Below, piece after piece: positions 21,048 to 37,940 of a stretch of 47,230 bases of DNA. Each line of letters starts with the position of its first letter. Position 1 is the stretch's first letter. Source of the stretch: Coriobacteriia bacterium (GTDB lineage Bacteria; Actinomycetota; Coriobacteriia; Coriobacteriales; Eggerthellaceae). A program made the translations under genes and the position numbers. The stretch lies in assembly GCA_030540225.1 (NCBI GenBank), contig JAUNWQ010000006.1, positions 1 through 47,230 of the forward strand. The letters run 5' to 3'. The notes under the pieces were generated by a model. The model was given only the letters and a program-made list of their open reading frames with translations, made no database searches and was not told where the DNA came from.

Positions 21048-21080
21048 GCACCTTGCGAACGCCCAATTCACCCTATCGCA

Positions 21081-21112: not shown

Positions 21113-21229
21113 GCTTTGCCTGGCCGATAACCACCGAGGGGCCGCCGAGGGGCCGCTGCCGCCAACCAGGCCACGGAGATGCGCAGCCAGCCGACAACCG
21201 CCAAGTCCAACATCAACAAGGAGATTCTT

Positions 21230-22486
21230 ATGAACCAATCGCTTTCCGCCACGCAGCGCTTTTCCGAGCTGTTCACCGAATCGATGGCCATCGGCCGCAA
21301 GCCGAACGGCGGGACCGACCGCATGGCTCTCACCCCCGACGATTGCGCACACCGCACATGGTTTGTCGAGCAGCTGCGCGAAGCGGGCTCCGAGGTGCGC
21401 ATCGATGCTACGGGTAATATCTTCGGGCTGTTTACCTGGGACGACAGCGCACCTTACATACTGTGCGGATCGCATCTGGACAGCCAGGAGAACGGCGGCG
21501 TGTACGACGGTGCGTACGGCGTGGTCGCAGCCCTGTGCGCAGCGCGGGCAATCGACGAGGCCGTGCGTGCAGAAGCGCTTGCGCCGACGGCGAACCTCGC
21601 CGTGGTCGATTGGACGAACGAGGAAGGCGCGCGGTTCGAGCCGAGCCTCATGGGCAGTCGCGTGTTCACGGGCGCGCTCAAGCTTGGCGCCATCGAGCAG
21701 GCGCAGGATTTGGATGGCGTGCGTTTCGGCGACGCGCTGCGCGAGGGCGGCTGGCAAGGGAACGACGAGCCACCGCAAGCCGCCGCCTACTTCGAGCTGC
21801 ACGTCGAGCAAGGACCCTCGCTTGAAGCTGCCGGCGTGAACATCGGCGCGGTCACCGGCAACTGGAGCGCCGTGAAGATGGATGTGTGCATCCTCGGCGA
21901 GCAGTCGCACACGGGATCGACCCCCATGCACCTGCGCAAAGACGCGCTCTACGGCATGGCGCTGCTCACCGTGGCCACGCGCGAGCTTGCCGACGATTTC
22001 ACGCGGCGCGGCATCGAGCTGCGCACATCGGTCACCAAGGTGCGCCTGTTCCCCCACTCCCCGAACATCGTGACGTCGAAATGCCAGCTCCACCTGGAGG
22101 TTCGCGCGGAATCCGAAGAGGTTGCCCGAGCTGCGGCGGACCAACTTGCCGCAACCTTCGCCGGCATCGAGGAGCAATCGGGCACTACGATCGAGATTGC
22201 GCGCACCGAAGTTCGCCAGGCGATGGCGTTTCCCGAAAGCGGCGTTTCCCTCATCGAGCGCACCGCCGAAACGTGCGGCTTAACCTGCATGCGCACGAAA
22301 ACGGTATGCGGGCACGATGCCATTGCCCTTGCCGCCGCCGTGCCCAGTGCGCTGATGTTCGTGCCGAGCGTCGGCAGCAGCGCTCACGCCCCCGGCGAGC
22401 TCACCAAGCCGGAAGACCTCGCCAACGGCGTGCGGGTGCTCGTCGAGATATTGCGAACCGCGCTTTCCCAAGGCGGCCTGGCGTAA
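21230..22486 (+). CDS. M20-family hydantoinase/carbamoylase-type amidohydrolase
   Basis: A 418-residue dinuclear-metal hydrolase of the N-carbamoyl-L-amino acid hydrolase / allantoate amidohydrolase group. Metal ligands are visible: H82 in CGSHLDSQ, D93 in GGVYDGAYGV, E131/E132 in NEEGARF, H191 in FELHVEQGP and the late His in GSSAHAPGE. It should cleave an N-carbamoyl or ureido bond, releasing CO2 and ammonia, or a related amide. The chosen ATG follows AAGGAG; the longer frame is rejected. A separate terminator precedes it, so it may have its own promoter, but its placement implies work on the same substrate class as the amidase. Confidence 0.9.
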   Translation: MNQSLSATQRFSELFTESMAIGRKPNGGTDRMALTPDDCAHRTWFVEQLREAGSEVRIDATGNIFGLFTWDDSAPYILCGSHLDSQENGGVYDGAYGVVAALCAARAIDEAVRAEALAPTANLAVVDWTNEEGARFEPSLMGSRVFTGALKLGAIEQAQDLDGVRFGDALREGGWQGNDEPPQAAAYFELHVEQGPSLEAAGVNIGAVTGNWSAVKMDVCILGEQSHTGSTPMHLRKDALYGMALLTVATRELADDFTRRGIELRTSVTKVRLFPHSPNIVTSKCQLHLEVRAESEEVARAAADQLAATFAGIEEQSGTTIEIARTEVRQAMAFPESGVSLIERTAETCGLTCMRTKTVCGHDAIALAAAVPSALMFVPSVGSSAHAPGELTKPEDLANGVRVLVEILRTALSQGGLA

Positions 22487-22488
22487 AA

Positions 22489-22523
22489 ATGCGGGCGGAC
22501 GCCACAAGGGCGCCCGCCCGCAT
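22489..22523. terminator. Hairpin terminator between M20 gene and convergent PLP gene
   Basis: A 10-bp stem ATGCGGGCGG / CCGCCCGCAT with an inner GCC/GGC stem begins just 3 bases after the M20 stop. It lies between convergent genes and could serve both, although no T tract follows on either strand. Confidence 0.5.
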
Positions 22524-22629
22524 CGCTCCACCTCGCCAGTGGCCCCGCGAGCCTCCTTCACCAGAATCCCGCCCGACAGCCCAGAAGCCGCCAGGCGCAG
22601 AGCAAGCCACCACGGGCGCGGCGCCCTTC

Positions 22630-23970
22630 CTATTTCTCCAGTTGATCGAGCGATGTCTCCAACGCACTGGCGAAAAAGTCCAGGTCGGCATCGTCGAAGA
22701 CCAGCGGCGGGCGAACCTTCAGCACGTTGCCGTACGGGCCGCACAAAGAGATGAGCACGTGGTTTTCGCGAAGCTGCTCGATGAGCGACACGGCGAAGGG
22801 GCGATCGGCCTCCTGGGTGCCGGGTTTGACCACCTCGACGCCGCAGAACAGGCCGGCACCGCGCACGTCCGCGAGGCGAGGGTGACGGGAAGCCACATCG
22901 CGCACGGCGGCGCGCAGCTTCTCGCCCATTTCCTGCGCGTGCGCCAGAATGTCGTTCTCGCGGATGAAATCGAGCACCGCCTGCGCGGCAGCCATCGACA
23001 CGGGATTGCCCGCGAACGTGTTGAAGTACGGGTTGTCGTCGGCGAACGCATCAAGCACGTCGGCGCGGATCGCCATGGCGGAGCACGGGATGCCGTTTGC
23101 CATGGGCTTTCCCATCGTCACGATATCGGGCACGATGCCATGGCGCGCGAAGCCCCAAAACGCGTCGCCCGTGCGGCAAAAGCCGGGCTGCACCTCGTCG
23201 GCAATATAGACGCCGCCCTCGCGATGCACCAGGTCAACAACTGGTTTCAGGAAGCCTCGAACACCGGGGATAACGCCGTCGGACGAGAAGATGTCGTCGA
23301 AGAGCACACCGGCGAACTCGATGCCGTGGCGACGCATATCGGCAATCTGGAGGGATATCTGCTCGCACATCCACGGGCCGAGGTCCTCGGTTCCCAGGCG
23401 ATAGGTGTCCGGCGAGGGAATCATGCGCATGGTACGGCTCATGGCGACACTCTTGCCGATCGACGGCGACAGCCCAGAGATCAGCGCCGTGTTCCCGTGG
23501 TAGGCCTCCCCCGTCACGATGATGCCCTCGCCGCCGGTGAAGAGCTGTGCGCAGCGGACGGCCAGGTCATTCGCCTCCGACCCCGAACACATGAACATGA
23601 TGCGGTTGATCTGGTCTGGCATCGTCGACAGGAGGTCCTCCGCGTAGTTCAGGATGTTCTCGTGCACATAGCGCGTGTGCGTATTGAGCAGCTGCAACTG
23701 CTTGGTAACCGCCTCGGTGACCGCAGGGTTGCTGTGCCCCATCGACGGAATGTTGTTGTACATGTCGAGGTATTCCTCGCCGTCGGCGTCGAACAGGCGC
23801 GTTCCCCGTCCGCGCACCAAATGAAGCGGCTTTTGATAGAACAGACGGTAGCACGGTCCCAGCACGCGACGCCGTTCGACCAAATCGTGCAGCTCTCCCC
23901 CGAGCGTGTCCAAGTTGTTCATATTGAAGCTGTTCGACTCGAGAATGCCGCAATCTTCCGAAGTGCCCAT
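22630..23970 (-). CDS. Class III PLP enzyme, amino-alcohol-phosphate phospho-lyase-like
   Basis: A 446-residue class III (ornithine-aminotransferase-fold) PLP enzyme. SGSEAND, AYHGNTALI, IADEVQPGF (D258, Q261) and the PLP Lys K288 in TMGKPMANG are present. The strings YLDMYNNIPSMGHSNP and LNTHTRYVHENI resemble the AGXT2L1/AGXT2L2 branch, which are phospho-lyases acting on phosphoethanolamine or phosphohydroxylysine rather than transaminases. With the kinases at 16989-18985 this suggests phosphorylation then elimination of phosphate and ammonia to give an aldehyde. AGGAAAGG stands 7 bases before ATG 23970. Ordinary omega-aminotransferase activity remains possible. Confidence 0.85.
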   Translation of the reverse strand: MGTSEDCGILESNSFNMNNLDTLGGELHDLVERRRVLGPCYRLFYQKPLHLVRGRGTRLFDADGEEYLDMYNNIPSMGHSNPAVTEAVTKQLQLLNTHTRYVHENILNYAEDLLSTMPDQINRIMFMCSGSEANDLAVRCAQLFTGGEGIIVTGEAYHGNTALISGLSPSIGKSVAMSRTMRMIPSPDTYRLGTEDLGPWMCEQISLQIADMRRHGIEFAGVLFDDIFSSDGVIPGVRGFLKPVVDLVHREGGVYIADEVQPGFCRTGDAFWGFARHGIVPDIVTMGKPMANGIPCSAMAIRADVLDAFADDNPYFNTFAGNPVSMAAAQAVLDFIRENDILAHAQEMGEKLRAAVRDVASRHPRLADVRGAGLFCGVEVVKPGTQEADRPFAVSLIEQLRENHVLISLCGPYGNVLKVRPPLVFDDADLDFFASALETSLDQLEK

Positions 23971-24240
23971 TTCTTCGCCTTTCCTTCTTCGCCACACGCG
24001 TATGCTCATTTCAAACCATCTGTACGCCTTGCATGGTAGGGCGCAAAGCATGCAGCCATATGAACGTAGATGGCGTTAGCGAAACTTCAAACATTTGGAA
24101 ATCAAGGCGAAATAGAACAGAAGCACACGCGTTACACGGGCGCGGAAACGCCGAACACCTGGCCTGCCGGACAGCGCGCGCTCGAGCTGGCGGCCAAGGC
24201 ACGCTCAGCTTGCCAGGCGGTTCGCGCCGGCAAAACAGAA

Positions 24241-24278
24241 GGGCCTGGCCTCGGATCATCTTCCGAAAAGCCAGGCCC
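24241..24278 (-). terminator. Terminator of the lysA-hom operon
   Basis: A perfect 9-bp stem GGGCCTGGC / GCCAGGCCC with an inner CGGA/TCCG pairing, about 110 bases after the hom stop. Minus-strand RNA then reads TTCTGTTTTGC. The remaining parts of 23971-24388 hold only the PLP gene's upstream region. Confidence 0.65.
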
Positions 24279-24388
24279 TCGAAGCCTTATCGCAAGGTGG
24301 GCATGTCCAAAATTCGGGACGCAACAAGCGCACTCCGGACGAGCCCTCGCCTCCCCAGCGGCAGGTCGCGGAAAGCAAGCGCGGCGCG

Positions 24389-25672
<1,284 letters not shown>

Positions 25673-25681
25673 AAGGTCCTC

Positions 25682-27037
25682 CTAGATGTCGCGGGCGTAG
25701 AGGTCGGCGTAGGTCTCGCGGCGCGTGACGACGCGGGCGACACCGTCTTTCACGAACACTACCGCCGGCTTGGGCTGGCCATTGTAGTTGCTAGACATGG
25801 TAGAGCAGTACGCGCCCGTTGTGAACACGCACGCGATATCGCCGACTTCCGGATGCTGAATGGGCATGTCGATGACGACCGCGTCGCCGCTTTCGCAGTG
25901 CTTGCCGCACAGCGTGACGATTTCCGTGCGCGGCTCGCCCGCCTTGTTGGCGATCACGGGTTCGTAGTCGGCATGGTAGAGCGCCGTGCGGATGTTGTCG
26001 GACATGCCGCCGTCGATGGCGACGTACTTGCGGATGCCGGGCAGGGTCTTTAAGATACCCACGGTGTAGAGCGTGACGCCGGCGTTGGCGACAAGGCTGC
26101 GACCAGGCTCGACGAGAATGCGCGGCTCGGGCACGCCGTATTCAGCGCAGAAATCCTTGACGGCACGCGTCGTGCATTCCGCGAAGTCCTCGATCGAGGA
26201 GGGCTTGTCGGTCGCGAGGTAGGCCACGCCCAGACCGCCGCCCAGGTCGAGCTCGGGGATCTCGATGCCGTATTCCTTCTGGACGCGCGCGATGAACTCG
26301 ATCATGACCTGCGCGGCCTCGCGGAACGAATGCAGCGCGAAGATCTGCGAGCCGATATGGCAGTGGAAGCCGACGAGCTTCACGTTGGGCGCCTCGATGG
26401 CGTCCTTCACGCACTTGAAAGCGAAGTCGTCGAGCATGGTGAAGCCGAACTTGGAGTCCTCGCAGCCCGTGCGGATGTACTCATGCGTGTCGGCCTCGAC
26501 GCCGGGCGTGATGCGCATGTAGATGGCCTGCTCGACGCCGAGCTCGCCGGCAATCTCGGACACGCGCGCAAGCTCGATGCGGCTGTCAACCACGATGCGG
26601 CCCACACCTGCGGAGATGGCTTCGCGCAGCTCAGCGGGCGTCTTGTTGTTGCCGTGCACGAAGACGCGCTCCATCGGGAAGCCCGCCATCTGTGCGCAGG
26701 CGAGCTCGCCGCCGCCCGACACGTCGAGGCAAAGCCCCTCCTCGTTCACGATGCGCACGACTTCCTTGTTGAGGAACGCCTTCGAAGCGTAGATGACGTC
26801 GGAGTTCTCGTAGCGCGAGCGGAACGCCTCGCGGTAGGTTTCCATGCGCCAACGAAGGTCGGCCTCGTCGAACACGTAGAGCGCGGTGCCTTCCTCGCGC
26901 GCGAGCTTCACCATATCGACGCCGCCGATGAACAGGTGGTTATCGCAAACCTCGGCCGTGCGGGGAAGAACCTCGCCCAAGTCCATGGTAGTGAGGTTGT
27001 CGGGCTGCTTGCTGGTATCGGATGCTGGGAGAGACAT
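25682..27037 (-). CDS. lysA: Diaminopimelate decarboxylase
   Basis: A 451-residue fold-III PLP enzyme that makes L-lysine from meso-diaminopimelate. It has the PLP-Lys strand VIYASKAFLNKEV, the HCHIGSQIF block, the Gly-rich phosphate-binding LDLGGGLGVAY, EPGRSLVANAG and the late CGKHCESGD motif. The chosen ATG is preceded by AAAGGA at a 6-base gap; the frame runs 64 codons further upstream without family similarity. First gene of the lysA-hom operon, divergent from the moaE-like gene. Confidence 0.95.
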   Translation of the reverse strand: MSLPASDTSKQPDNLTTMDLGEVLPRTAEVCDNHLFIGGVDMVKLAREEGTALYVFDEADLRWRMETYREAFRSRYENSDVIYASKAFLNKEVVRIVNEEGLCLDVSGGGELACAQMAGFPMERVFVHGNNKTPAELREAISAGVGRIVVDSRIELARVSEIAGELGVEQAIYMRITPGVEADTHEYIRTGCEDSKFGFTMLDDFAFKCVKDAIEAPNVKLVGFHCHIGSQIFALHSFREAAQVMIEFIARVQKEYGIEIPELDLGGGLGVAYLATDKPSSIEDFAECTTRAVKDFCAEYGVPEPRILVEPGRSLVANAGVTLYTVGILKTLPGIRKYVAIDGGMSDNIRTALYHADYEPVIANKAGEPRTEIVTLCGKHCESGDAVVIDMPIQHPEVGDIACVFTTGAYCSTMSSNYNGQPKPAVVFVKDGVARVVTRRETYADLYARDI

Positions 27038-27283
27038 AGCTGTCCTTTCTGATGCTGTGGAATTTTCCCAGTCTATCATTTGGGCGATGAGCAAGTATTT
27101 CCCATTCGTAAAATGCACGCGTTTTATAGGGAAGGGGAAGGTGAGCGGGACGAATAGCAAACCTGCCGATTCGCGGGAGCTGGGGTGCGCACGCCCCGCG
27201 GGAAGGCTCGCTTCGAGTACAATGGGCATCTAGATAGCGCCTGGGAAAGGGCGCCTGAACACTCAACGTTTTGGAGGCAACTT

Positions 27284-27679
27284 ATGTCCAAACCCGAACC
27301 GTCGATCGACCAGTGGCTCAAGGAAGCCAAGGCCGACCCGAAAGCCGCGCAGTGCGGCATGTTCCTCACCCACAACGGCATCGTGCGCATCACGCCCAAA
27401 AAGCAGGTGCGCGAAGGCGTCCAAGGCCTTGGGGAAGTCGCGAAGGTGCAATTCTCCTACGACGCCGAGGGCGTTGCCGCAGCCGAGAAGGAGGCGCTCA
27501 CCTGGCCGGGCGTGTACTACGTGCGCACGTGGATGAACGAGGGCGAGCTTGGCGTGGGCGATTCCATCATGTACGTGCTCATCGGCGCCGACATCCGCCC
27601 GAACTGCGTCGATGCGCTGCAAAAGCTCGTCGGCAAGATCAAAAACGAGCTCGTCGTGGAAAAGGAAATCTACGCGTAG
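27284..27679 (+). CDS. MoaE-like molybdopterin synthase subunit homologue
   Basis: A 131-residue protein whose layout follows MoaE, the large subunit of molybdopterin synthase. Compared by eye with E. coli MoaE, the sulfur-transfer lysines K119 and K126 match K120 and K127 (GKIKNELVVEKE), and MNEGELGVGDSIMYVLIGA matches HRIGELWPGDEIVFVGVTS. The His of the SAHRSSAF motif is replaced (ADIRPN keeps the Arg), so it is a divergent member. GGAGG stands 7 bases before the ATG. No MoaD gene adjoins it. It could support the Mo enzyme encoded at 30477-32957. Confidence 0.72.
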   Translation: MSKPEPSIDQWLKEAKADPKAAQCGMFLTHNGIVRITPKKQVREGVQGLGEVAKVQFSYDAEGVAAAEKEALTWPGVYYVRTWMNEGELGVGDSIMYVLIGADIRPNCVDALQKLVGKIKNELVVEKEIYA

Positions 27680-27697
27680 AGCTTTCGCGTGAACGCA

Positions 27698-27736
27698 GCG
27701 GCACCCCGGGGAGAAAAGCCAACCCCGGGGCGCCGC
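27698..27736. terminator. Hairpin after the moaE-like gene
   Basis: Stem GCGGC-CCCCGGGG paired with CCCCGGGG-GCCGC, with one unpaired base on each side, 18 bases beyond the stop codon. No T tract follows, so Rho-independent action is uncertain. Confidence 0.45.
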
Positions 27737-27739
27737 ACT

Positions 27740-27777
27740 AATGCAACGAAGCGAGCGGGGGCGCACCTTGTTGCATT
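27740..27777. promoter_or_regulatory. Wide dyad before the TetR-family gene
   Basis: A perfect inverted repeat AATGCAAC-N22-GTTGCATT ends 22 bases before the TTG start of the regulator. It may be the TetR autorepression site, or a leader hairpin. Confidence 0.4.
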
Positions 27778-27799
27778 CTCAGAGGGGAGATGCGAGGTT

Positions 27800-28423
27800 T
27801 TGAACAACTCGCTTATCAGCAATTACCAGACGAAGCTGCTTATCTTGGACGCAGCTGACAAGCTTGTCGAGGAAACGCCGTTCGACAAGCTTTCGGTCAC
27901 GCAGATATGCGAGGAAGCGGGAATTTCCCGCGCGACGTTCTACCGCTGCTTCAAAGACAAGTTCGCCATCGCCCAATGGCACGTGGAACTCGCCTGGGCG
28001 CAAGGGGCAAACGAAATCGGCCGCACGCTTTCGTGGAAAGAGGGGTACTACATCACGGAGGCGAACATCGCAAGCCGCAACCTCTTCTATGCCGGCGTAG
28101 CGAAATCGAACGACTATAACGCCATCGACAACTTCGCGCCGCGCCTGCGCCGCAAGACGATCACCGAGACGCTCACGCAAATGCGCAAGGTTCCCATGAC
28201 TGAGCGCTTAAAGTTTCAGATCGACGCCACCGTCGAGCTCGAAGTTCACCTGCTCCCGAAATGGCATTACGGCTTCTACGATGTGCCCCTCGACGAGATG
28301 TGCGAATGGGTTGCCGACTCGGTTCCGCGCGAGCTGTTCGACCTTCTGAACACGCCGCTCCATCCGCGCTCATCGCGCCCGCCCCGGCCCCTTGCGGAGC
28401 CCAGGCCGCATCGCATCATTTAG
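27800..28423 (+). CDS. TetR-family transcriptional regulator
   Basis: A 207-residue repressor-type protein: N-terminal helix-turn-helix (ILDAADKLVEETPFDKLSVTQICEEAGISRATFYRCFKD in pieces, about 10-50), with a Trp-rich C-terminal ligand domain. There is no ATG in the right place; TTG 27800 is used, with GAGGGGAG about 10 bases upstream and GAGG nearer. It is convergent with the zinc-ribbon and MFS genes and lies between the moaE-like gene and the dehydroxylase-like operon, so control of either is possible. The ligand is unknown. Confidence 0.85.
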   Translation: MNNSLISNYQTKLLILDAADKLVEETPFDKLSVTQICEEAGISRATFYRCFKDKFAIAQWHVELAWAQGANEIGRTLSWKEGYYITEANIASRNLFYAGVAKSNDYNAIDNFAPRLRRKTITETLTQMRKVPMTERLKFQIDATVELEVHLLPKWHYGFYDVPLDEMCEWVADSVPRELFDLLNTPLHPRSSRPPRPLAEPRPHRII

Positions 28424-28617
28424 CGCTCCCCACAGCCCGCATTCCGCTGGAACGATCCTGGGGTTTTCGGCAGCGGCTTGCCGCAGTTCGCGCACACTTT
28501 CGCATCGGCCTCATTCTGCGTGCGGCAGAAGATACACCATCCTTCGGGCTTCACCTTCGCGTCGGATGAAGGCGGCCCGCACTTTCCGCAGTGTATGCAG
28601 GCGAAACAGCGCGGCAC
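28420..28617 (-). CDS. Small double zinc-ribbon protein (65 aa)
   Basis: A short gene with GTG start, 4 bases after the stop of the MFS gene on the same strand. The protein has two Cys clusters: RCFACIHCGKCG near the start and CIFCRTQNEADAKVCANCG after it. AGGA lies about 11 bases before the GTG, within the last codons of the MFS gene. The C-terminal CxxC…CxxC is a standard zinc ribbon. Its last codon overlaps the end of the convergent TetR gene by 4 bases. No function is known to me. Confidence 0.6.
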   Translation of the reverse strand: MPRCFACIHCGKCGPPSSDAKVKPEGWCIFCRTQNEADAKVCANCGKPLPKTPGSFQRNAGCGER

Positions 28618-28621
28618 GAGA

Positions 28622-29890
28622 CTAGCGTTCCTGGTCCGCGTCAGCCGCAGCAGAAGGCGCGCTCTCATCAAAGGCGCCATCCGCAGGCTTCGCCACGAGC
28701 GCACGCATGGGGTGCACAAGTCCGATGACCGCGCACACGGCGCACATCGCGATCAACACGGGGAACACGGCGTCGTTGCCAGCGGCCGGATTGACTGCAA
28801 CCGTTGCCGCGAACAGGTACGGCGCAATGAAGGGGCCCAGGTTCATCATGGAAGTCATGATGCCGGAAACGAACGGGACGCGGCTTTTCGGAGCGATATT
28901 GCCCGTCGCATTCTGCGCCGCCGTGAAGAACATCGAGCCGCCGAATCCCAGAATGAACACGCCAATCGCATAGACAATCGTGTTGTCGGCAAACATGCAG
29001 GGAACAACGCCGATCGCTGCAAGCGCCGCGCCGATGCCGAACAGGCGGGCCTTGAACACGCGGACGAGCGTTGGGAACGCAAGGCCGCACAAGATAGTGC
29101 CGATGCCGCAGCAGTTGATGACGAGCGCCGCCTGACCGGAGCTTGCAAGCCCGCGCACGTCGAGGATGGTCGACGTGATGATCTGCACGGTCACCACACA
29201 GGTCCACGTCACCAGCGCAAAGAGAGCGTACCCCCAGATGGCACGAGGGATTTTCTCCTTTACCGCCTCCGCGTGCTCCGCGCGCTCGCGCTCGCGGCCT
29301 GCGGCCACAACGCCCTTCGCCTCGGGCATCCACGCAAGCGCGATGACCATGGGAACAAGGCCGATAAGATACGCAAGGAAGGAATAATTCCAGCCGATTT
29401 CGGTAAGATAGCCCGCAACCGTCGTGTAAATCAGGTTGAACAGGAACTGAATCGTGATGCCGAGTCCCAAAAGGCGCGAACGCTTCTCGCCTTCAAACAG
29501 CGCGATGATAGTCGCATTTCCCACAGGGAACATCACGCCCAAACCGATGCCCACGATAACGCGTGAAACGATGACGAGCGTGTAGTCGGTGATGTCCGGC
29601 ATGAGGAACGGGAAGGCGCCGCCGAGCGACATCACCAAGATGCCAAGGATGGCCATCGGCTTGAAGCCGACCTTGTGAAGAATAGCTCCCGAAAGCACGC
29701 TCACCGGCACCGACACGATACCCGTGATGCTGTTCGCGAACATGATAGTCGTGATGTCGGTCCCCACGAAATGGTGCGAGAACGCGGCTATCGAAGGCGT
29801 CAGAATCGCAAATTCGCTCATCGTGCAGAAGAGCGCCAAAATGCCGATTACGTTAAGGGTCGAAAGACCCTGCCCCTCTTTGGTTTTCAT
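28622..29890 (-). CDS. MFS transporter
   Basis: A 422-residue major facilitator with 12 predicted helices. The loop after helix 2 reads GAILHKVGFKPMAILG, a variant of the MFS signature, and a charged central loop (AGRERERAEHAEAVKEK) separates the halves. The chosen ATG has GAGGGG 8 bases upstream. Its position after the Fe-S protein gene suggests a link to the Mo enzyme, as an importer of the aromatic substrate or exporter of the product. Hairpins lie between it and the Fe-S gene, so it may be transcribed apart. Substrate unknown. Confidence 0.88.
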   Translation of the reverse strand: MKTKEGQGLSTLNVIGILALFCTMSEFAILTPSIAAFSHHFVGTDITTIMFANSITGIVSVPVSVLSGAILHKVGFKPMAILGILVMSLGGAFPFLMPDITDYTLVIVSRVIVGIGLGVMFPVGNATIIALFEGEKRSRLLGLGITIQFLFNLIYTTVAGYLTEIGWNYSFLAYLIGLVPMVIALAWMPEAKGVVAAGRERERAEHAEAVKEKIPRAIWGYALFALVTWTCVVTVQIITSTILDVRGLASSGQAALVINCCGIGTILCGLAFPTLVRVFKARLFGIGAALAAIGVVPCMFADNTIVYAIGVFILGFGGSMFFTAAQNATGNIAPKSRVPFVSGIMTSMMNLGPFIAPYLFAATVAVNPAAGNDAVFPVLIAMCAVCAVIGLVHPMRALVAKPADGAFDESAPSAAADADQER

Positions 29891-29941
29891 GCCCACTACC
29901 CCTCTTCTTAGGCTTCCTATTATGCGTGAAATCCCCCGATA

Positions 29942-29988
29942 ACGCATCGGGTGGGGCAATCGAGCGTCCGTTGCCCCACCCGATGCGT
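29942..29988. terminator. Large hairpin upstream of the MFS gene
   Basis: A perfect 18-bp inverted repeat (ACGCATCGGGTGGGGCAA and its complement) around an 11-base loop. It stands 52 bases before the MFS start on the minus strand, so it would either end transcription from the Fe-S gene or form a leader structure. An overlapping second stem, GCGTACCGC (29985-29993) with GCGGTACGC (30014-30022), is mutually exclusive at the shared bases. Confidence 0.5.
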
Positions 29989-30035
29989 ACCGCGCAAGCA
30001 CACATGCGCTCAGGCGGTACGCGGGGAGGGAAATG

Positions 30036-30075
30036 CCCCGAGCCGAACACGGGGGGAGGTTGGATCGGCTCGGGG
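30036..30075 (-). terminator. Terminator after the Fe-S protein gene
   Basis: A perfect 11-bp inverted repeat CCCCGAGCCGA / TCGGCTCGGGG located 43 bases beyond the stop of the Fe-S gene, followed on the minus strand by CATTTCCC. Confidence 0.5.
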
Positions 30076-30117
30076 TTTGCTCATGCGAGGTGGAGAATCC
30101 CGCAGAGCGTCGGATAG

Positions 30118-30471
30118 CTATTCAGTCGGCGCCCAGAGAACCTGCTTAGGCTTCTTGGTGAGCTCGGCGGCCATCTCCTCGATGGTGCCGAACTTCATGC
30201 AAGCAGCGAGGCAGTTGTGCACGCACACCGGCTCACGGTTGTCGGCCAGGCGCTCGGCGCACAGGTCGCACAGATCCGTCGGAACGGGAATCTTGTTCCA
30301 GTTGAAGTTCGCACCCTGGTCGGAGGAGTCGTCCTTCTGCCAAGGGCCCTCGTCGAGCACGCGGATGCCCCACTTGCCCACCGGGAAATGGTGCTCTTCC
30401 TTGCAAGCGACCTCGCAGGACTGGCAGCCCGTGCAGTATTCGTAGTCGATAAGCAGACCGTATTGAGTCAT
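30118..30471 (-). CDS. 4Fe-4S ferredoxin-type electron-transfer subunit
   Basis: A 117-residue iron-sulfur protein with two sets of cysteines: C13, C16, C19 and C23 (CTGCQSCEVAC) and C68, C71, C83 and C87, plus C91. It is a shortened form of the beta subunit of DMSO-reductase-family enzymes (usually near 200 residues with four clusters). It should pass electrons to the Mo enzyme encoded directly upstream. The ATG lies 5 bases after that gene's stop and has no strong ribosome site, so coupled translation is likely. A small ferredoxin partner is typical of cytosolic catechol dehydroxylases. Confidence 0.88.
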   Translation of the reverse strand: MTQYGLLIDYEYCTGCQSCEVACKEEHHFPVGKWGIRVLDEGPWQKDDSSDQGANFNWNKIPVPTDLCDLCAERLADNREPVCVHNCLAACMKFGTIEEMAAELTKKPKQVLWAPTE

Positions 30472-30476
30472 CTTCG

Positions 30477-32957
30477 TTACACCAGCTTTCCAAACTTCTC
30501 GCCGAACGCCTTCATGTCGACGTCGTAGCTTTCCTTCAGGGGCGTGACGTTGCAGCACGCGCTCTTGTACGGAGCACCCAAGCCAAGCGCGTTGTTGTGG
30601 TGCTCGGGGATCAGGTCGTTGCAGTTGGACTGCCACACGCCGAACAACGAGGGCTCCGATCCGTCCTGCTCAGGGAACCACCAGCCGTGATCGGCCTCCA
30701 CGTGGCCTTCCTTGATGGTCGGCAGGATGCGGGCCTTGTACTTCGCCTTGCCGAACATGTTGGAGATTTCGCACCACTGCCCGTCGGCGAGGCCGATCTT
30801 CTCGGCGTCCTTCGGGTTGATCTCGAGCATCGGGTTCGGGTCGATCTCGCGCAGGACGGCGATCTGACGATGCTCGGAGTGGAAGGAGCTGTAGCGACGA
30901 TGGCCCGTGGAGAGGATGAACGGGTACTTCTTCATGATCTCCTCGTGCGAAAGGTCGCGCTCATGCCACTTGGCGTCGAGCTCCTCGGGCACATAGGGGT
31001 TCGCCAGCAGGTTCAGGTCCTCGGGCTTCTTGTCCGGGATGCGCGGCGAAAGGTCGGGCTCGTAGTAGTACGGCAGCGGATCCATACCGTTGTCGTTGAA
31101 CTGCGATGACCACAGCTCCACGCGGCCGGTCGGGGTAAGGAAGCCGGGCTGTCCGTCGGGGCGGAGCTTGCCGGTCTCGTACTTCTTGTAGTACACCTTG
31201 CGTTTGAACTTCACAAGGCCCTTGACCTCGTCGAAGGTGTGGCGTCCCTCGAGGCGGTTCTTGTTCAGGTAGTCGTGATACTCGGCGTACTTCTCGTGCG
31301 CGAAGCAAGCCTTCGGGTCGTCCGGGAACATCTTGGCCATGCGCTCGGCGATCAGGCAGTAGATCTCGAGGTCGGACTTCGCCTCGCCCACCGTGATCGC
31401 CTTGTTGCCGCAGCCGGTGGTGATGGAAGCCGCGCCATAGTGGGTGCGGTTCACGCCGTCATGCTCGACCACGGTCGACAGCGGCAGGAACACGTCGCAC
31501 ACCGCCTGGATGGTCGGGGTGATGAAGCAGTCGGTGCCGAAGGCGAACTCGATGGAGCGCTGGAATGCCTTGTGCCAACGGGTCGGCTCGGCGGAGTTCG
31601 TCGGCGCGAGCAGGTTGGTGTTGGCGATCCAAGCCATCTTCACCGGGTAGGGCTCGTCGGTTTCCAAGGTGTCGAGGATGCAGTCCGCCTGGCAACCGGT
31701 AATCTGGTTGCAGTAGAGCGGGTACTTGTCCATGCCGATGCACTCGGCGCGCTCCTCGTCGGTCATCTGGTACCAACCCTCGGTAATGAACGAGCGAGTG
31801 TCGGTGTTGTGGGCCGACTGGCCGGCAGCAGCATCGCCGGTAAGGTCCTCGGGCATCGACAGGTCGGCAACGATGTTGCCACCGGGAACGTCAAGGTTGC
31901 CGGTCATGCAGATCATGGCAAGCACGCACTGGCCGGCCTGCATGCCGTTGGTGTTCTGGTCGAACGCGAGGCCCCAAGCGATGGACGCGGGCTTCGCGGC
32001 AGCGTACATGCGGGTCACACGGTAGATGTCGTCGACGGGCACCTCGCAGATCTCAGCAGCCTTCTCCGGCGTCATATAGGCGACACGCTCGGCGAACTCG
32101 TCGAAGCCGTAGCACCAGCGCTCGATGAAGTCGTGGTCGTAGAGGTCTTCCTTGATGAGGATGTTGCACATCGCCATCGCGAGCGCCGCGTCAGTACCGT
32201 TGCGCACGCGCAGCTGCACGACGGAGCGGGTAGCGAGCCAGTTCACACGCGGGTCGATGGTCACAAGCTTCGCGCCGCGCTTCATAAGGTCGATCACCGC
32301 GTGGCCGAAGAAGCCGTCGGGGTTGGACGCCAGCGGCATCTTACCCCAGAGGATCATGAGCTCAGGCACCTGGTACTCGGGGTCGTCGTAGCCGCCTTCG
32401 AGGCCACCGGCGTAGTCGAGCTCAGGGTAGAGCGCGCCGAGAACCATCTGGGAGGACATCATACGCGGCTGGTAGCACGCGTAGCCGGACTGCGTGTAAG
32501 CCAGATTAGGCGTACGGAAGATGGAGAGCTGGAAGTCCTGGGAGAGCATGCCGTCGCGGCCGGTTCCCACGAAGATCGCCATGGTCTTGCGACCGTACTT
32601 CTCGGTGAGCTCCTTCCAGTTGTCCATGATGAGGTCGAGAGCCTCGTCCCAGCTGCAGCGCTCCCACGCGTCGGCGTTGCCGCGCTCGGACTTGTCGCGC
32701 TTCATCGGGTAGATCACGCGGCTCGGGTTGTACACGTAGTCCTTGAGCGCCAGGCATCTCGGGCAGAGGCGACCGTGGGTGATGGGGTCGTTCTCGTCAC
32801 CCTCGATGTGGTCCATGCGGCCGTCCTTGTCGACGTAAATCTTGATGCCGCATCCAACGGGATGGCATCCCGGGGGGCTCCACACCGATGAACGGTAAAC
32901 CGTGAAGTCGCCATCCTGGAACTTCCAGGGCTTACCCAGGTCGTTCTTGAATTCCAT
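30477..32957 (-). CDS. Molybdopterin oxidoreductase, catechol-dehydroxylase-like
   Basis: An 826-residue bis-MGD enzyme of the DMSO-reductase superfamily. The N-terminus has cluster ligands C31, C36, C65 and C68 (GCHPVGCGIK … RLCPRC), domains II/III contain MILWGKMPLASNPDG and TIDPRVNW, and the C-terminal MGD-binding domain has FILSTGHRRYSSFHSEHR. There is no Tat signal, so it is cytosolic. The Trp-x-Pro-Pro-Gly-Cys-His opening, size, small ferredoxin partner and two flanking MFS genes match the catechol dehydroxylases of Eggerthella and Gordonibacter, which remove an aromatic hydroxyl. Relatives such as acetylene hydratase and pyrogallol transhydroxylase are alternatives. Substrate unknown. 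Confidence 0.9.
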   Translation of the reverse strand: MEFKNDLGKPWKFQDGDFTVYRSSVWSPPGCHPVGCGIKIYVDKDGRMDHIEGDENDPITHGRLCPRCLALKDYVYNPSRVIYPMKRDKSERGNADAWERCSWDEALDLIMDNWKELTEKYGRKTMAIFVGTGRDGMLSQDFQLSIFRTPNLAYTQSGYACYQPRMMSSQMVLGALYPELDYAGGLEGGYDDPEYQVPELMILWGKMPLASNPDGFFGHAVIDLMKRGAKLVTIDPRVNWLATRSVVQLRVRNGTDAALAMAMCNILIKEDLYDHDFIERWCYGFDEFAERVAYMTPEKAAEICEVPVDDIYRVTRMYAAAKPASIAWGLAFDQNTNGMQAGQCVLAMICMTGNLDVPGGNIVADLSMPEDLTGDAAAGQSAHNTDTRSFITEGWYQMTDEERAECIGMDKYPLYCNQITGCQADCILDTLETDEPYPVKMAWIANTNLLAPTNSAEPTRWHKAFQRSIEFAFGTDCFITPTIQAVCDVFLPLSTVVEHDGVNRTHYGAASITTGCGNKAITVGEAKSDLEIYCLIAERMAKMFPDDPKACFAHEKYAEYHDYLNKNRLEGRHTFDEVKGLVKFKRKVYYKKYETGKLRPDGQPGFLTPTGRVELWSSQFNDNGMDPLPYYYEPDLSPRIPDKKPEDLNLLANPYVPEELDAKWHERDLSHEEIMKKYPFILSTGHRRYSSFHSEHRQIAVLREIDPNPMLEINPKDAEKIGLADGQWCEISNMFGKAKYKARILPTIKEGHVEADHGWWFPEQDGSEPSLFGVWQSNCNDLIPEHHNNALGLGAPYKSACCNVTPLKESYDVDMKAFGEKFGKLV

Positions 32958-33011
32958 GATCTAACTCCTCTCGTCTTTTGCGTTAAATCACTCGAATGGT
33001 TTTCGTTATCT

Positions 33012-34256
33012 TTATGCCTGCTTCTTGTCGCGCGCCTTAAGCACGAGCAGAAGGGCCAAAGAACCAAGGAAGAGAACGATGCCGACAGCCGCGAGCAGGC
33101 CCGTGCATGCGCCCCAGCCAGCCGTCGCAACCACCGCGCCAACTGCGGCGAACAGGATGCCGCCAACGCACTGACCGCAGCTCATGAGGGTGGAAGACAC
33201 GCTCGCAAGCTCGGGGCGCGGAGCGATTTCCGCGACCATCGTGAAGAAGATGGCCGGCACGACGCCGTTCGACAGGCCGAACACGATAAGCCACGGGGTG
33301 AGCATCGCGCCGTTGACCGTGTAGGCCAGCGCGAAGCAGATACCGAGCACCGCCGAGCTCACGACCAAGATAGCCAGGCGACCGGAATTGCTCTTCACCG
33401 CGTTCATGACGAAGCCGATTGCGATACCGCCGATAACGACGGCGATGTTCGCGACGTTGAGCATGCCGTTCGCGGCGGCCTGATCCATGCCCATGGTCTG
33501 CACCATGTAGAGCGTCTCGAAGTTCATGACGCACGCCGTGCCCAAAGCAAACGCAGCGAACGCGATCATGGCAACCCAGCAGGACAGGCTCTTGAAGCCC
33601 TCGGAGACCTTCGGTTTCGGGGCGCTGGGGTCAGCCTCGTCTTCCAGATAGGAATGCTGAGGGTTGCGGACGGCAACGACCCAGATGACGGTGATAATCG
33701 CCATGAGCACGACGACGAACCAGAACACGTTGTGGTAGCTCGACGGATCGGCCGTGTTGAAGAAGAAGCCGGACGTGCCCATGATGAACATGGAGCCAAG
33801 CGGAACCCACACGGAGAAGATGCCCATCGGCACACCGCGCTTCGACGGAGGGAACCATTCGGACACGAGCACGGGGACCACGGTGCCGATGCAGGCGTAG
33901 CCCACGCCCTCGATAAGGCGGCCGACGACCAGAAGCTCATAGGACTGCGCAAAAGCGCTGATGATCGCACCGACGAGCGCGCATCCCAAAACCATGAGCG
34001 TCGATTTCTTCGAACCGAACTTCATGATGATGGTTGCAGCCACGAAGGCCAGGACGAACCCGACGTAGCCGTTCAACGACATCAATGTGCTGAGCGCACC
34101 GGTGTCGATGCCCAGCGCCGGCAACACGAGCGACGCCGTCGCAGGAAGCTTGTTGTTGTTGACTGAGATCAGAATGGACGCGACAATCGCGATGATCGCG
34201 ACGACCCAGGCGCGGCCTGTTTGATTGATCTCGGATTTGCGAGCCTCTTCGCTCAT
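33012..34256 (-). CDS. MFS transporter, first gene of the Mo-enzyme operon
   Basis: A 414-residue major facilitator with 12 helices; the loop between helices 2 and 3 reads IIMKFGSKKSTLMVLG. AGAGGGG stands 7 bases before the ATG. It is 55 bases upstream of the Mo enzyme gene on the same strand, so it is probably co-transcribed and carries the substrate in or the product out. It is not a recent copy of the MFS at 28622-29890, as the sequences are clearly different. Confidence 0.9.
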   Translation of the reverse strand: MSEEARKSEINQTGRAWVVAIIAIVASILISVNNNKLPATASLVLPALGIDTGALSTLMSLNGYVGFVLAFVAATIIMKFGSKKSTLMVLGCALVGAIISAFAQSYELLVVGRLIEGVGYACIGTVVPVLVSEWFPPSKRGVPMGIFSVWVPLGSMFIMGTSGFFFNTADPSSYHNVFWFVVVLMAIITVIWVVAVRNPQHSYLEDEADPSAPKPKVSEGFKSLSCWVAMIAFAAFALGTACVMNFETLYMVQTMGMDQAAANGMLNVANIAVVIGGIAIGFVMNAVKSNSGRLAILVVSSAVLGICFALAYTVNGAMLTPWLIVFGLSNGVVPAIFFTMVAEIAPRPELASVSSTLMSCGQCVGGILFAAVGAVVATAGWGACTGLLAAVGIVLFLGSLALLLVLKARDKKQA

Positions 34257-34388
34257 TTTTCAACCCCTCTTTTCCTCTCGTGAGCGGTCTTTCGTCTTGC
34301 CCGCTCCGCTTACCCCTCTTGCTCGCAAGCCTTGGCGAACGCCTGTTGATTGGCTTGCGATGGTGCATGTCGGTCAGCCCTTGCCGAC

Positions 34389-34417
34389 CGAACGACACGT
34401 ACTTTAGCGACCGTTCG
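34389..34417. promoter_or_regulatory. Candidate operator of the Mo-enzyme operon
   Basis: An inverted repeat CGAACG-N17-CGTTCG, extended by GCCG/CGGC outside, lies 130-165 bases upstream of the MFS start. The rest of 34257-34518 shows no gene. Confidence 0.3.
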
Positions 34418-34518
34418 CCGGCAAAAAAAGGCCGTTTGAGACAAGTCGGACGCCGTGTTTTCCCCGTGAGACAGAAACGGGAATATGTCGCATCTTTCGG
34501 GAGTAGACTGAGGAGAAA

Positions 34519-34563
34519 ATGAGAAGCCGTGCGACCCCGTATCACGGTCGCACGGCTTCTCAT
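34519..34563 (-). terminator. Strong terminator of the TPR-protein gene
   Basis: A perfect 18-bp stem (ATGAGAAGCCGTGCGACC and complement) around 9 bases, followed on the minus strand by TTTTCTCC. It lies about 90 bases past the stop of the 34651-37662 gene. Confidence 0.75.
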
Positions 34564-34650
34564 CTATAGGGATTTTGGTTGAAAAAGAGCTACGGAGGAG
34601 ATGTTTTCCCTGGTCAGCTCATCACGACTGCCAAATTGAGCGCTTGCGGG

Positions 34651-37600
34651 CTAGTCGAGCGCCTGCGGCGGCATGGGCGCGTTGAGGCTCTTGTGCACGT
34701 TCACGAGCGCGTCGTCGGGACGATAGAACAGCCGCAGCGCCAAGAGCGGTTGGCCGACCTGGAAGATGTTGTCGTCTATCGCCGTGCGCATGGCGTCGTC
34801 GAGCGCATCGAGCAGCGAGTCGAGCGGCGCGATGGGCACGCCCTCTCCCGCAAGGATCGCGTCGACTTCTTCGCGATCGATAGGACCCTGCCCGGTCTCC
34901 GCCATCAGCCGATGCATCTCGATGGTGCATTGGGCCAGGTAAATCGGGGCAATCATCATCGACTTCATATAGCACGCCACACCGAGCGCCGTTTTCCCCG
35001 CCTTCCATTCCACGTATGCGAGCTGATAGTACGCAAGCGCGATCTCGTCGGGCTGCGTCGCGATTTCCAGGCAGCGCCTGAGCGTGCGCGAGGATGTGGA
35101 CACGTCGCCCATGAGCATGTATGCGCGTGCCGTCTGGCGATACGCGGGCGTATAGGTGGGCGCGACCTGAATGCAGCGCAGGCCGAACTGTACGGCCTCT
35201 TCCGCGTGGCTGAACGACTCCTCGAGAAGGCGAACCGACTCCAAGTAGCACATAGCCAGAGACGATGGCAGAAGCTCGACGCGCTTCCCCTCGTCAGGAT
35301 GGGGGAAGGCAAGTCCGCTGCGCCAGGGTGCGCTCCCCTGCCGCTCGCGGTTGTAGATGATGCGCGACGCATACGTGTCGAACATGCGATGGACGGCCTC
35401 AGAGTTGTCCGCAAAGCGCTTGGACTCCTCGGCCTGGCGAATCGTGTCACGCAGGATCGACGCCGCCTTATGCGGATCGGTTTGCGCGACGGCGCGCGCC
35501 TGCCTGAGCGCATTCAGGTAAGGATCCTCTCCCATAAAGCAGCTGACCAGCGCGTTCTGGTCGTGCGCATCAACGTTGCCTTCCAGAAGGTCGGTCATAA
35601 GGCGCGTGCTCGCTGCGAAAATACGCGGGTCGTCGGCTGCGTTCTGCTCCGTCTGCGCCAAGCGGATGGCCTCGGTGGTGCTCGTCGAGCGCGCGATCGC
35701 ATCGGCGAGCCGCTCGCCCGCATGGCGCAGCTGAGCATCGGAGTGAATCCTTAGGTCACGAAGCGATTCTGCGCCGAATGCCTTCGCCTCGCGCGGACCG
35801 AAGGCGAGCGAGCCCACCTCGGGCAGCTCGCCGCGAATGCGTTTCGCTTCGGCATCGACGGCATCATCGAGCGAGAAATCGACCGCGTCGGCGCCGAAGC
35901 GCGCGCCGCATTCCGCGAACAACTGCGCGGGATCGCCTTTAAGCGCCTCTCGGAAACGGGCGCCCTCGCAGATGCTTCTCGTGAATTTCACCTGGTAGAG
36001 AGGGTGTGCATCGCGGCCGTCGGCATTGGCGCTTCCGCTGCCATTGTCGCCGGGTTCGACGATAACGCTGCCGTCTTCGAGCTCGACGATGACGCTGCCG
36101 CCATCGAACTCATCGCCTTCAGCGTCAGACCCGCCGTCAAACTCGCCATCTTCGCCGCCGAAACCGGTACCAAACCCGGTGTCGACGCCGGCGCCGTCGC
36201 CATGGCTTTCACCTGCAGGCTCGCTACCTTCGGGTCCGACCTCGCCGGCTGATTCCAGCCCCCGCGCACAGACGGCCACCTCATCGATCGCGCACCCCGC
36301 ATGGAATGCGGCCGCGGCGAGCATCATGCCCACATGCTCGGCGTAGCGCAGCGCCATTTGCCCTCGCTCGGCGTCGGATTGGTCGACCCAGGAACCCGCC
36401 TGAGAGGAGTAGACCCGCTGTGGCATAAGCTGCGCAGGCGGTACGACCACCTCGAACGCGACTTTTCCGCAGCGCACGTCGACGCGGTACTCGACCATGA
36501 AGCGAACGGGCAGCTGGAAGCGCTCGATCGATTCCCCGATTGAGCGGCGGACGTCCCATTCCCCCGCCCTGTTCGGCGCCGCGGCGTTCTCGTCTGCGGG
36601 ATGCGCGGCGCAGGGAGCCTGCACAGCGACCGCCTCGAACAGCTGCGTATCGATGGCACCGCACGCATCTATTTCGGAAACATCCTGGTCGGGCGCATCG
36701 CAGCACCCCGCGTCCGAATTCTTCTCGAGCTTTCGTGCAATGAGCACGAAGCGGTTGATCGCCGACTCGATAGCCCAAATCGTCGCCTCGGGAATGCCGT
36801 CGCCGCCTTCCCCGCGACCGAGGAAATACGTGTCCGAATAGCGCCGCGTCCGAACGAATCGCAGCGACGGGGCGTTCAACCCGTCGCTTTGGGCACCCGC
36901 CAGCACGCCCATCGCGTTCGCGTCGTAAAGCCAGCTCGCAAGCAGAAGAGCGAGCGACGGAGGCTGCATCGCGGGATCGAGGGCCGCAGAGCGGATGTCG
37001 TGCAGGGCGCCGAGCAGGTCCTCGAAGGGCGTTTCGGAGTCGAGGCTCTCCATGATCTCGCCGAGACCGCGCGCCGGGACCCGCGCACCGCCGAGCAGCG
37101 GGCGGAAGGTGAACGCGAAAAAGCAGCGGGCGAGCGCCTCGTGATACGTGAGGTTGTCCGAGTGGGAGCCGAAATCGCACCAGGAATCGAAAAGCGAGTA
37201 GCGGCCGTTTTTCAGGGAGAAGCAGGCGACTTGACGAACCCCGCGCTTGTCGCGCAGCTGAACGGTGCCGCGAATCTCCTCGTCACGCTTGAATTTCGAG
37301 CGAGGCGTGACAAGCGTGCCGAAATCAGTTGGGGATTTCCCGTCCCAGGGTCGCGAAAACAGGATATCGGGATCGCGTGCCGGGGGTGCGAAAAGCGGGC
37401 GATCAGTCACGAACGCGCGGCCGTAGCAATCGACGTATCCCCAGATGCGGAACTTGTTTTCCGAAATGAACTCAACCAGGTAGATGTCACCCGAGGAGGG
37501 AGTGATGCTCGAGTCGCGAATCCAACCGAACGACGATGTCGGTGCAGGTCCGCCGGGCAGGGGCATCACCGCATCGGGCAGCACCTGAGGTCGCGCCCCG

Positions 37601-37662
37601 AAAAGACCGACCCCGCCGTCGATGCGATACACGCCGTCCTTATCCGTCTCGCAATGCGCCAT
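34651..37662 (-). CDS. Large TPR-like protein of unknown function (1003 aa)
   Basis: The N-terminal 500 residues are globular and not recognised. Residues about 510-590 form an acidic Gly/Asp/Glu/Ser linker with a small internal duplication (GSVIVELEDGSVIVEPGD). The C-terminal 400 residues are helical with TPR-like pairs (YTPAYRQTARAYMLMGDVSTSS, ALAYYQLAYVEWKAGKTALG in part), which suggests a protein-binding scaffold. No signal peptide or membrane helix is seen. AGGAAAGGAAG precedes ATG 37662; the frame continues 45 codons upstream but without such a site. It is a single-gene unit with its own terminator. The TPR part is the only domain I can support. Confidence 0.75.
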   Translation of the reverse strand: MAHCETDKDGVYRIDGGVGLFGARPQVLPDAVMPLPGGPAPTSSFGWIRDSSITPSSGDIYLVEFISENKFRIWGYVDCYGRAFVTDRPLFAPPARDPDILFSRPWDGKSPTDFGTLVTPRSKFKRDEEIRGTVQLRDKRGVRQVACFSLKNGRYSLFDSWCDFGSHSDNLTYHEALARCFFAFTFRPLLGGARVPARGLGEIMESLDSETPFEDLLGALHDIRSAALDPAMQPPSLALLLASWLYDANAMGVLAGAQSDGLNAPSLRFVRTRRYSDTYFLGRGEGGDGIPEATIWAIESAINRFVLIARKLEKNSDAGCCDAPDQDVSEIDACGAIDTQLFEAVAVQAPCAAHPADENAAAPNRAGEWDVRRSIGESIERFQLPVRFMVEYRVDVRCGKVAFEVVVPPAQLMPQRVYSSQAGSWVDQSDAERGQMALRYAEHVGMMLAAAAFHAGCAIDEVAVCARGLESAGEVGPEGSEPAGESHGDGAGVDTGFGTGFGGEDGEFDGGSDAEGDEFDGGSVIVELEDGSVIVEPGDNGSGSANADGRDAHPLYQVKFTRSICEGARFREALKGDPAQLFAECGARFGADAVDFSLDDAVDAEAKRIRGELPEVGSLAFGPREAKAFGAESLRDLRIHSDAQLRHAGERLADAIARSTSTTEAIRLAQTEQNAADDPRIFAASTRLMTDLLEGNVDAHDQNALVSCFMGEDPYLNALRQARAVAQTDPHKAASILRDTIRQAEESKRFADNSEAVHRMFDTYASRIIYNRERQGSAPWRSGLAFPHPDEGKRVELLPSSLAMCYLESVRLLEESFSHAEEAVQFGLRCIQVAPTYTPAYRQTARAYMLMGDVSTSSRTLRRCLEIATQPDEIALAYYQLAYVEWKAGKTALGVACYMKSMMIAPIYLAQCTIEMHRLMAETGQGPIDREEVDAILAGEGVPIAPLDSLLDALDDAMRTAIDDNIFQVGQPLLALRLFYRPDDALVNVHKSLNAPMPPQALD

Positions 37663-37767
37663 CAAACTTCCTTTCCTCTTGGGGAAAGGATAGCACTGCA
37701 CAGCGCAGATGCCCCGTTTAACGAAGCGCAATGTCGATACGGGCGACACGGTGCACGGCAAAAGCCC

Positions 37768-37940
37768 AATTCCGGCACAAAAACCGAGTTGTCCCACGGA
37801 TGGAGTCGCATTCGGGAGGTATTTTCGCCCTCAGGTACGACCCTTGTCGACGCATGACGGCAAAAGGCCAGGTCAATCTATTCGCTTCCTGATTTTTAGA
37901 ATACTAGTCAGTGGGACATCTCGGAATTTGTGCCAGAATC
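37768..37940. mobile_element. MITE-like element bounded by 30-bp inverted repeats
   Basis: Two 30-base arms, 37768-37797 and 37911-37940, are inverted copies with 25 of 30 matches; shared cores are GGCACAAA and TGTCCCAC. The 113 bases between hold no gene. Arms of this length on a 173-bp unit are typical of a miniature element from an insertion sequence that lost its transposase. I see no clear target duplication. It sits about 100 bases upstream of the TPR-protein gene. Confidence 0.5.

Follow-up and report, generated by a model that had tools for sequence, protein, structure and literature searches.

A putatively mobile cassette for a probable Gordonibacter-type catechol dehydroxylase, with a linked TetR regulator and a conserved cysteine-rich microprotein

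The DNA stretch described here (the window) comprises 47,230 nucleotides of contig JAUNWQ010000006.1, from a Coriobacteriia bacterium of the family Eggerthellaceae. It contains, on the minus strand, an operon in which the genes for a major facilitator superfamily (MFS) transporter (MFS-a), the catalytic subunit of a molybdenum (Mo) enzyme, a small Fe-S subunit and a second transporter (MFS-b) are followed by the gene for a cysteine-rich microprotein. A tetR gene and a moaE-like gene are encoded on the plus strand and run convergently to the operon. The coordinates of all features are reported in Table 1.

Table 1. Features of the catechol dehydroxylase (CDH)-like locus, in window coordinates.
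Feature	Coordinates	Strand	Remarks
MFS transporter a (MFS-a)	33012-34256	-	414 aa; first gene of the operon; Pfam MFS_1, 119.6 bits
Mo enzyme, catalytic subunit (bis-molybdopterin guanine dinucleotide, bis-MGD)	30477-32957	-	826 aa; assigned by Pfam, tree and cysteine alignment
Small Fe-S subunit	30118-30471	-	117 aa; two [4Fe-4S] motifs
MFS transporter b (MFS-b)	28622-29890	-	422 aa; Pfam MFS_1, 126.6 bits
Cys-rich microprotein gene	28420-28617	-	65 aa; tblastn, alignments, codon bias, CDH association
TetR-family regulator	27800-28423	+	207 aa; TTG start; Pfam TetR_N; inside the islet
Putatively gained islet, whole cassette	27778-34650		tetR, microprotein, MFS-b, small Fe-S subunit, Mo enzyme, MFS-a
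Candidate TetR operator	34437-34473	-	two TGTCTCA half-sites (-218, -188) upstream of MFS-a, the sole two in the window
Perfect 18-bp inverted repeat	29942-29988	-	in the small-subunit/MFS-b gap; two more hairpins up to 30075
MoaE-like gene	27284-27679	+	native flank outside the cassette; present at the empty site of sister genome G001
TPR-repeat protein gene	34651-37662	-	native flank outside the cassette; in G001 94% identical and adjoining the moaE-like gene

An initial annotation, made from the sequence alone, had described the first four genes as a probable CDH-like operon: an MFS carrier, an 826-residue Mo enzyme devoid of a Tat signal, a 117-residue 4Fe-4S partner encoded 5 bases downstream and a second MFS carrier, all on one strand. 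Open reading frames and Pfam agree with this layout. The Mo enzyme contains the Pfam domains Molybdopterin, Molydop_binding and Molybdop_Fe4S4, and its N-terminus (MEFKNDLGKPWKFQDGDF...) shows neither a twin arginine nor a hydrophobic stretch; the small-subunit gene starts 5 nt 3' of the Mo enzyme gene and encodes eight cysteines arranged in two [4Fe-4S] motifs. For MFS-b, a listed longer start at 30001 was judged less likely than the one at 29890. The small, conserved microprotein gene had been missed in the initial annotation.

The identity of the reference enzymes used for comparison rests on genomic context and length, not on accession sequences. The Eggerthella lenta CDHs come from a genome which we take to be that of E. 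lenta DSM 2243, and the Gordonibacter reference is presumably the G. pamelaeae type genome, 82% complete. Gp Hcdh was located as a protein of the published length (770 aa), adjoining a TM-LuxR gene whose best E. lenta match, 51% identical over 415 aa, adjoins E. lenta hcdh. At about 2.586 Mb, two adjacent genes that are 74% identical to each other, with two MFS genes and LysR as neighbours, fit the enzymes (+)-Eldh1/2, known as GPA_25810 and GPA_25800 of G. pamelaeae. Eadh was located via its Amidohydro_2 (Eah) neighbour, and is 39-41% identical to the window enzyme. Dodh, (-)-Eddh and Gs Vadh were not pinned to any gene, and Eadh3 (Ellagibacter) was not identified by sequence. The idea that the window enzyme is a sister of the lignan enzymes, suggested by a 74%-identical pair in the same clade, was abandoned, since GPA_25800/25810 fit the other 74% pair, 40% identical to the window enzyme.

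A quick tree with SH-aLRT (Shimodaira-Hasegawa-like approximate likelihood ratio test) support was built from the E. lenta CDHs, acetylene hydratase, Eadh, Eldh, Gp Hcdh and the window enzyme. The latter is nested deep inside the Gordonibacter-type clade (98%), while acetylene hydratase and the Eggerthella type, which forms a clade of its own (100%), fall outside; a FastTree run on 79 rows agrees. Gp Hcdh stands to one side of the window enzyme and Eadh/Eldh across the deepest split of the clade, so that it is bracketed by catechol dehydroxylases. Its identity is 45% to Gp Hcdh, 39-41% to Eldh and Eadh, and 25-28% to the E. lenta CDHs. At least 8 further homologous genes or gene pieces, 39-47% identical, are present in the window's own genome, and homologs number about 30 in each Gordonibacter genome.

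The described Gordonibacter-type CDHs (Gp Hcdh, (+)-Eldh1/2, (-)-Eddh/Cldh, Dodh, Gs Vadh, Eadh1-3) share with the window enzyme a cytosolic Mo subunit of about 740-880 aa without a Tat signal, a small Fe-S partner lacking a membrane anchor, adjacent MFS carriers, the clade, Cys161 and, mostly, the four Fe-S cysteines described below; they differ in sequence (39-45% identity to the members located by context), in using TM-LuxR or LysR where the window cassette has TetR, and in that the latter is a movable six-gene islet including a conserved microprotein. The Eggerthella-type enzymes (Dadh, El Hcdh, Cadh, El Vadh, (+)-Eddh, (-)-Eldh1/2) belong to the same superfamily and presumably catalyse the same type of reaction, but are Tat-exported, three-subunit and membrane-anchored (PMC7028382), measure about 940-1200 aa and are controlled by TM-LuxR; neither the Tat signal, nor the three subunits with an anchor, nor this size is found here. 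On these features the enzyme is probably a Gordonibacter-type catechol dehydroxylase, a known enzyme class, so that the proposal of another family member was mostly right; the accompanying statement, that Eggerthella and Gordonibacter enzymes both follow this plan, holds for the latter genus and fails for the former.

Among solved structures, acetylene hydratase (2E7Z) is the closest by sequence (223 bits), a pattern already published for CDHs (PMC7028382). It also has a Cys metal ligand, but is only 29% identical, performs no reduction, has no small Fe-S subunit and lies outside the clade. Pyrogallol hydroxytransferase (4V4C), a bis-MGD enzyme acting on a phenol ring, scored 41 bits and is not a near relative. 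NCBIfam matches to DmsA, PhsA and Fdh were all far below cut-off.

The cysteines of the small subunit (C-x2-C-x2-C-x3-C and C-x2-C-x11-C-x3-C) correspond to two [4Fe-4S] sites, although Pfam Fer4 was detected below threshold only, and 97 of the 104 homologous small subunits retain the full set of eight. A further set of Fe-S cysteines, C31-x4-C36-x28-C65-x2-C68, is present in the catalytic subunit. Gordonibacter catalytic subunits were stated to have no Fe-S motif (PMC11574389), where the altered spacing may have been overlooked. All four are kept in 110 of 123 homologs and lost together in 6 (replaced by SYNN or EWSF), and this joint keeping or joint loss supports a common cluster. Cys161 is invariant (123/123) and aligns with the metal-ligand Cys/Sec of formate dehydrogenase-type enzymes; it is the presumed Mo ligand. 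AlphaFold modelling of the Mo enzyme, from 12 rows, was too poor for use (predicted local distance difference test, pLDDT, 54).

Some homologs deviate from this pattern. In the likely Gp Hcdh (G000:C40 of the window's own genome, L067 11607-14299; Gordonibacter loci L165, L171, L184, L193) the catalytic Fe-S cysteines are S, Y, N and N, and nearly all eight small-subunit cysteines are gone, while the Mo ligand Cys is kept. This homolog is, by its 770 aa and hcdh-related TM-LuxR, most likely Gp Hcdh itself; if this identity is right, a respiratory Gp Hcdh would operate without an Fe-S wire. A second, independent loss (E, W, S, F), with the small subunit intact, is seen at L190 7106-9331 of Gordonibacter sp. 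Marseille-P2775, presumably the G. massiliensis type strain. At L156, L196 and L074 the first catalytic Fe-S Cys is Asp.

Scanning 84,980 species genomes yielded 16 loci at 74-90% identity to the Mo enzyme. They are carried by Gordonibacter sp. Marseille-P2775 (two copies), Enterorhabdus sp. P55, Adlercreutzia faecimuris JBNU-10 and metagenome-assembled genomes (MAGs) of Eggerthellaceae or Coriobacteriia, some labelled goat rectum or roe deer jejunum and others with the prefix RUG, which we take to denote cattle rumen MAGs. Family and order surveys, in which the order was sampled and not exhausted, place the ortholog group in at least 8 genera of two families, and no member was found in the other families searched in the sampled order. 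The cassettes stand among unrelated genes. In most of them MFS-a is 71-84% and MFS-b 67-79% identical to the window proteins, and the keeping of the four-gene order at unrelated genomic sites indicates that it is not due to chance.

The next group is at most 59% identical, with a partial 70% match in G082 as the single exception. The best match is 58-59% in the G. pamelaeae genome and 55% in a second complete Gordonibacter genome; no E. lenta CDH exceeds 28%. All these values lie below the 72% identity cut-off used to define isofunctional CDH clusters (PMC11585353). As no close characterised relative was found, a substrate of its own is likely, and the orthologs would make up a new CDH substrate group, acting on a compound other than those assigned so far, possibly a phenol of plant or host origin.

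Two observations concern the carriers. The second copy in Marseille-P2775 (L087 7001-9481; G060:C1:2143613-2146090) is 86% identical, stands in tandem with another CDH and contains an in-frame TAG; it may be a decaying or misread duplicate. In the window's own genome (G000:C93, L069 1-14500), an eam-like cluster contains two CDHs, of which one has at least 91% identity to a Gordonibacter Eadh; this, together with the sister genome, suggests an Ellagibacter-like metaboliser of ellagic acid.

This sister genome (G001, same genus) has no ortholog, the best match being 47%. Window positions 24384-27777 and 34651-37786 match its locus L222 collinearly at 92-97%, and the 6,873 bp in between (27778-34650) are replaced by 4 bp. 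The islet extends from just past the 3' region of the moaE-like gene to the 3' end of the TPR gene, has a GC content of 60.6% versus 63-64% in the flanks, and shows no integrase or insertion sequence. An empty site of this kind is expected for a horizontally gained islet; the patchy spread across genera and families favours a gain, probably recent, over a loss from G001. The initial annotation had also pointed to a MoaE-like gene and a TetR regulator just downstream. Both exist, and the link to TetR stands; the moaE-like gene is outside the islet and present at the empty site, and hence a bystander. It was not seen beside the orthologs, and the MoaE link was rejected.

A tetR gene adjoins the cassette in every ortholog with enough flanking sequence (n=11, window included; at least one tetR each). 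Downstream convergent TetR proteins are 43-64% identical to that of the window, and upstream divergent ones about 30%. Published CDH regulators are TM-LuxR (PMC9734109) and LysR (PMC11887054), and TetR is not mentioned as a regulator in the CDH papers searched, these two included; its presence in place of the regulators usual in described Gordonibacter-type members marks a variant and does not bear on membership. Palindromes of the form TGTCTCA-N4/5-TGAGACA lie 150-270 bp upstream of MFS-a at four orthologous loci (L080, L081, L085, L086), with a variant at L090, and in Marseille-P2775 a palindrome with 10-bp arms, TGAGACAGAT-N6-ATCTGTCTCA, precedes tetR. In the window the half-site count is not above chance and position alone is suggestive; the sites may represent a TetR operator. 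The perfect inverted repeat in the small-subunit/MFS-b gap is a possible RNA processing or attenuation element, and the three inverted repeats of this gap (29942-30075) may lead to different transcript levels for MFS-b. Scattered repeated palindromes, AAAATGAGACAAA...TTTGTCTCATTTT, occur in an uncultured Coriobacteriia genome (L082 4452-15322).

The microprotein gene, between MFS-b and tetR, begins with a GTG 4 nt past the MFS-b stop. Its product (VPRCFACIHCGKCG...CIFC...CANCGKPLP) has eight invariant cysteines, C-x2-C-x2-C-x2-C ... C-x2-C ... C-x2-CG, and is found, at 41-75% identity, in all 15 orthologous copies with enough flank; its gene follows MFS-b or the small-subunit gene, or lies beyond tetR or upstream. 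In one example, 8, 12 and 29 differences fall at codon positions 1, 2 and 3, respectively; since third positions take most changes, translation of the gene and selection on its product are very probable. Many other Gordonibacter-type CDHs adjoin relatives that share these eight cysteines. A profile search of complete genomes gave 16 strong matches in Marseille-P2775 and 9 in the second Gordonibacter, of which 15 and 8, respectively, lie less than 6 kb from a CDH gene, a zone covering 9% of the genome. The seed rows of the profile came from CDH neighbourhoods, some in the same genomes; minus six such matches, 17 of 19 are still near a CDH. No match was obtained in two Eggerthellaceae genomes without Gordonibacter-type CDHs.

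Pfam reports weak zinc-ribbon similarity only for the microprotein, its AlphaFold model was too poor for use (pLDDT 63), and the CDH papers searched mention neither zinc nor a small protein. A role in maturation is disfavoured, because (+)-Eldh1/2 were active when placed in E. lenta, which is microprotein-free, provided that the constructs were without the microprotein gene. Preferred instead is a protein that modulates the transporters or the regulator in response to metal or redox state. More speculatively, and with less than even odds, the family may be an obligate small partner of Gordonibacter-type CDH loci, serving metal or redox control of uptake or expression or as the missing electron carrier, and the cassette a self-contained, mobile, TetR-controlled module for catechol respiration. 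A second microprotein family near CDH genes (MCFRP...; 71-105 aa), which combines a CPxCG/CxxCG zinc ribbon with a collagen-like (GAP)n tail, was seen at L165 6678, L169, L173, L177, L179, L190, L192, L193, L196, L201, L202 and L206.

Taken together, we assign a probability of roughly 0.78 to the reading that the islet is a cassette, acquired horizontally, that serves to dehydroxylate one particular catechol-type compound in respiration. Import of the compound and export of the product would fall to MFS-a and/or MFS-b. The cytosolic Mo enzyme, its bis-MGD cofactor held by Cys161, would bind the leaving hydroxyl; the neighbouring hydroxyl would tautomerise, the oxygen would pass to Mo and the ring would re-aromatise to a meta-phenol, as in the mechanism of tautomerisation and oxygen abstraction proposed for CDHs (PMC7028382). 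Electrons would come from a donor presumably encoded outside the cassette and pass to Mo via two [4Fe-4S] clusters in the small subunit and a single one in the catalytic subunit. The catechol would serve as an electron acceptor, a use shown for Gp Hcdh (PMC11585353). TetR may repress the operon until the substrate or its product is bound, as conserved proximity and candidate operators suggest, and the microprotein would be a dedicated small partner.

Several points weigh against this reading. The TetR proteins form two groups only about 30% alike, and the regulator may have been exchanged. The operator motif was noticed on inspection, which makes the evidence post hoc; its count in the window is at chance, and unrelated repeats of its half-site occur in one genome, so that it is to be taken as a lead only. 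The gap hairpins may uncouple MFS-b from the operon. Finally, Mo-dependent dehydroxylation of a non-catechol exists, namely corticoid 21-dehydroxylation (PMC11574389), and the clade need not be wholly catechol-specific.

The last point leads to an alternative that we consider unlikely, in which the enzyme either removes a hydroxyl reductively from a non-catechol, for instance an alpha-hydroxy ketone, as happens in corticoid 21-dehydroxylation, or works without reduction as a hydroxyl transferase or hydratase. Corticoids are indeed dehydroxylated by a Mo enzyme of Eggerthella and Gordonibacter (PMC11574389), and acetylene hydratase is the closest solved relative; but E. lenta has the corticoid activity and no enzyme of this clade (best 27-31%), the bracketing by catechol enzymes in the tree is strong, and a dedicated Fe-S small subunit argues for reduction and against hydration, and pyrogallol hydroxytransferase is distant. 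A literature search joining Gordonibacter, 21-dehydroxylation and molybdenum found no paper in a limited collection. An ordinary respiratory reductase of S- or N-oxides, nitrate, arsenate or similar, merely resembling a CDH operon, would fit the DMSO-reductase superfamily and the sub-threshold NCBIfam matches; given the place in the tree, the missing Tat signal and membrane anchor and the two MFS carriers, it is very improbable.

The substrate might also be one already known, were the enzyme an ortholog of an assigned Gordonibacter enzyme (Dodh, (-)-Eddh/Cldh, Gp Hcdh, Eldh, Eadh or Gs Vadh). The architecture is the same, and Gs Vadh likewise has two subunits and two transporters (PMC11887054). 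The G. pamelaeae genome contains nothing above 59%, and this speaks against all enzymes assigned in that species; the 55% of the second Gordonibacter is equally below the 72% cut-off (PMC11585353). Gs Vadh is set apart by context only, having LysR and standing near Gp Hcdh in the published tree, whereas the window enzyme is accompanied by TetR and shares 45% identity with Gp Hcdh; Eadh3 is set apart by kinship only. Such an orthology appears quite improbable, and a respiratory dehydroxylation of a catechol of its own stays the preferred function.

The enzyme class itself is known; what is new here is an unassigned CDH cluster, with an inferred reaction, its TetR-linked mobile setting and the conserved microprotein. 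In a published survey, 121 of 126 catechol dehydroxylase clusters were left without a function (PMC11585353). The present one has cultured carriers as well as close non-carriers, so that its substrate should be findable by simple comparison. The islet suggests that a probable polyphenol-metabolising trait moves as one small unit between gut genera, those of herbivores included, and the microprotein, found beside many CDH genes, offers a new handle on the workings of these loci.

A second islet, at window positions 14146-24383 (10.2 kb), is also absent from G001; it contains amidase-like, symporter-like and aminotransferase-like genes, named by eye.

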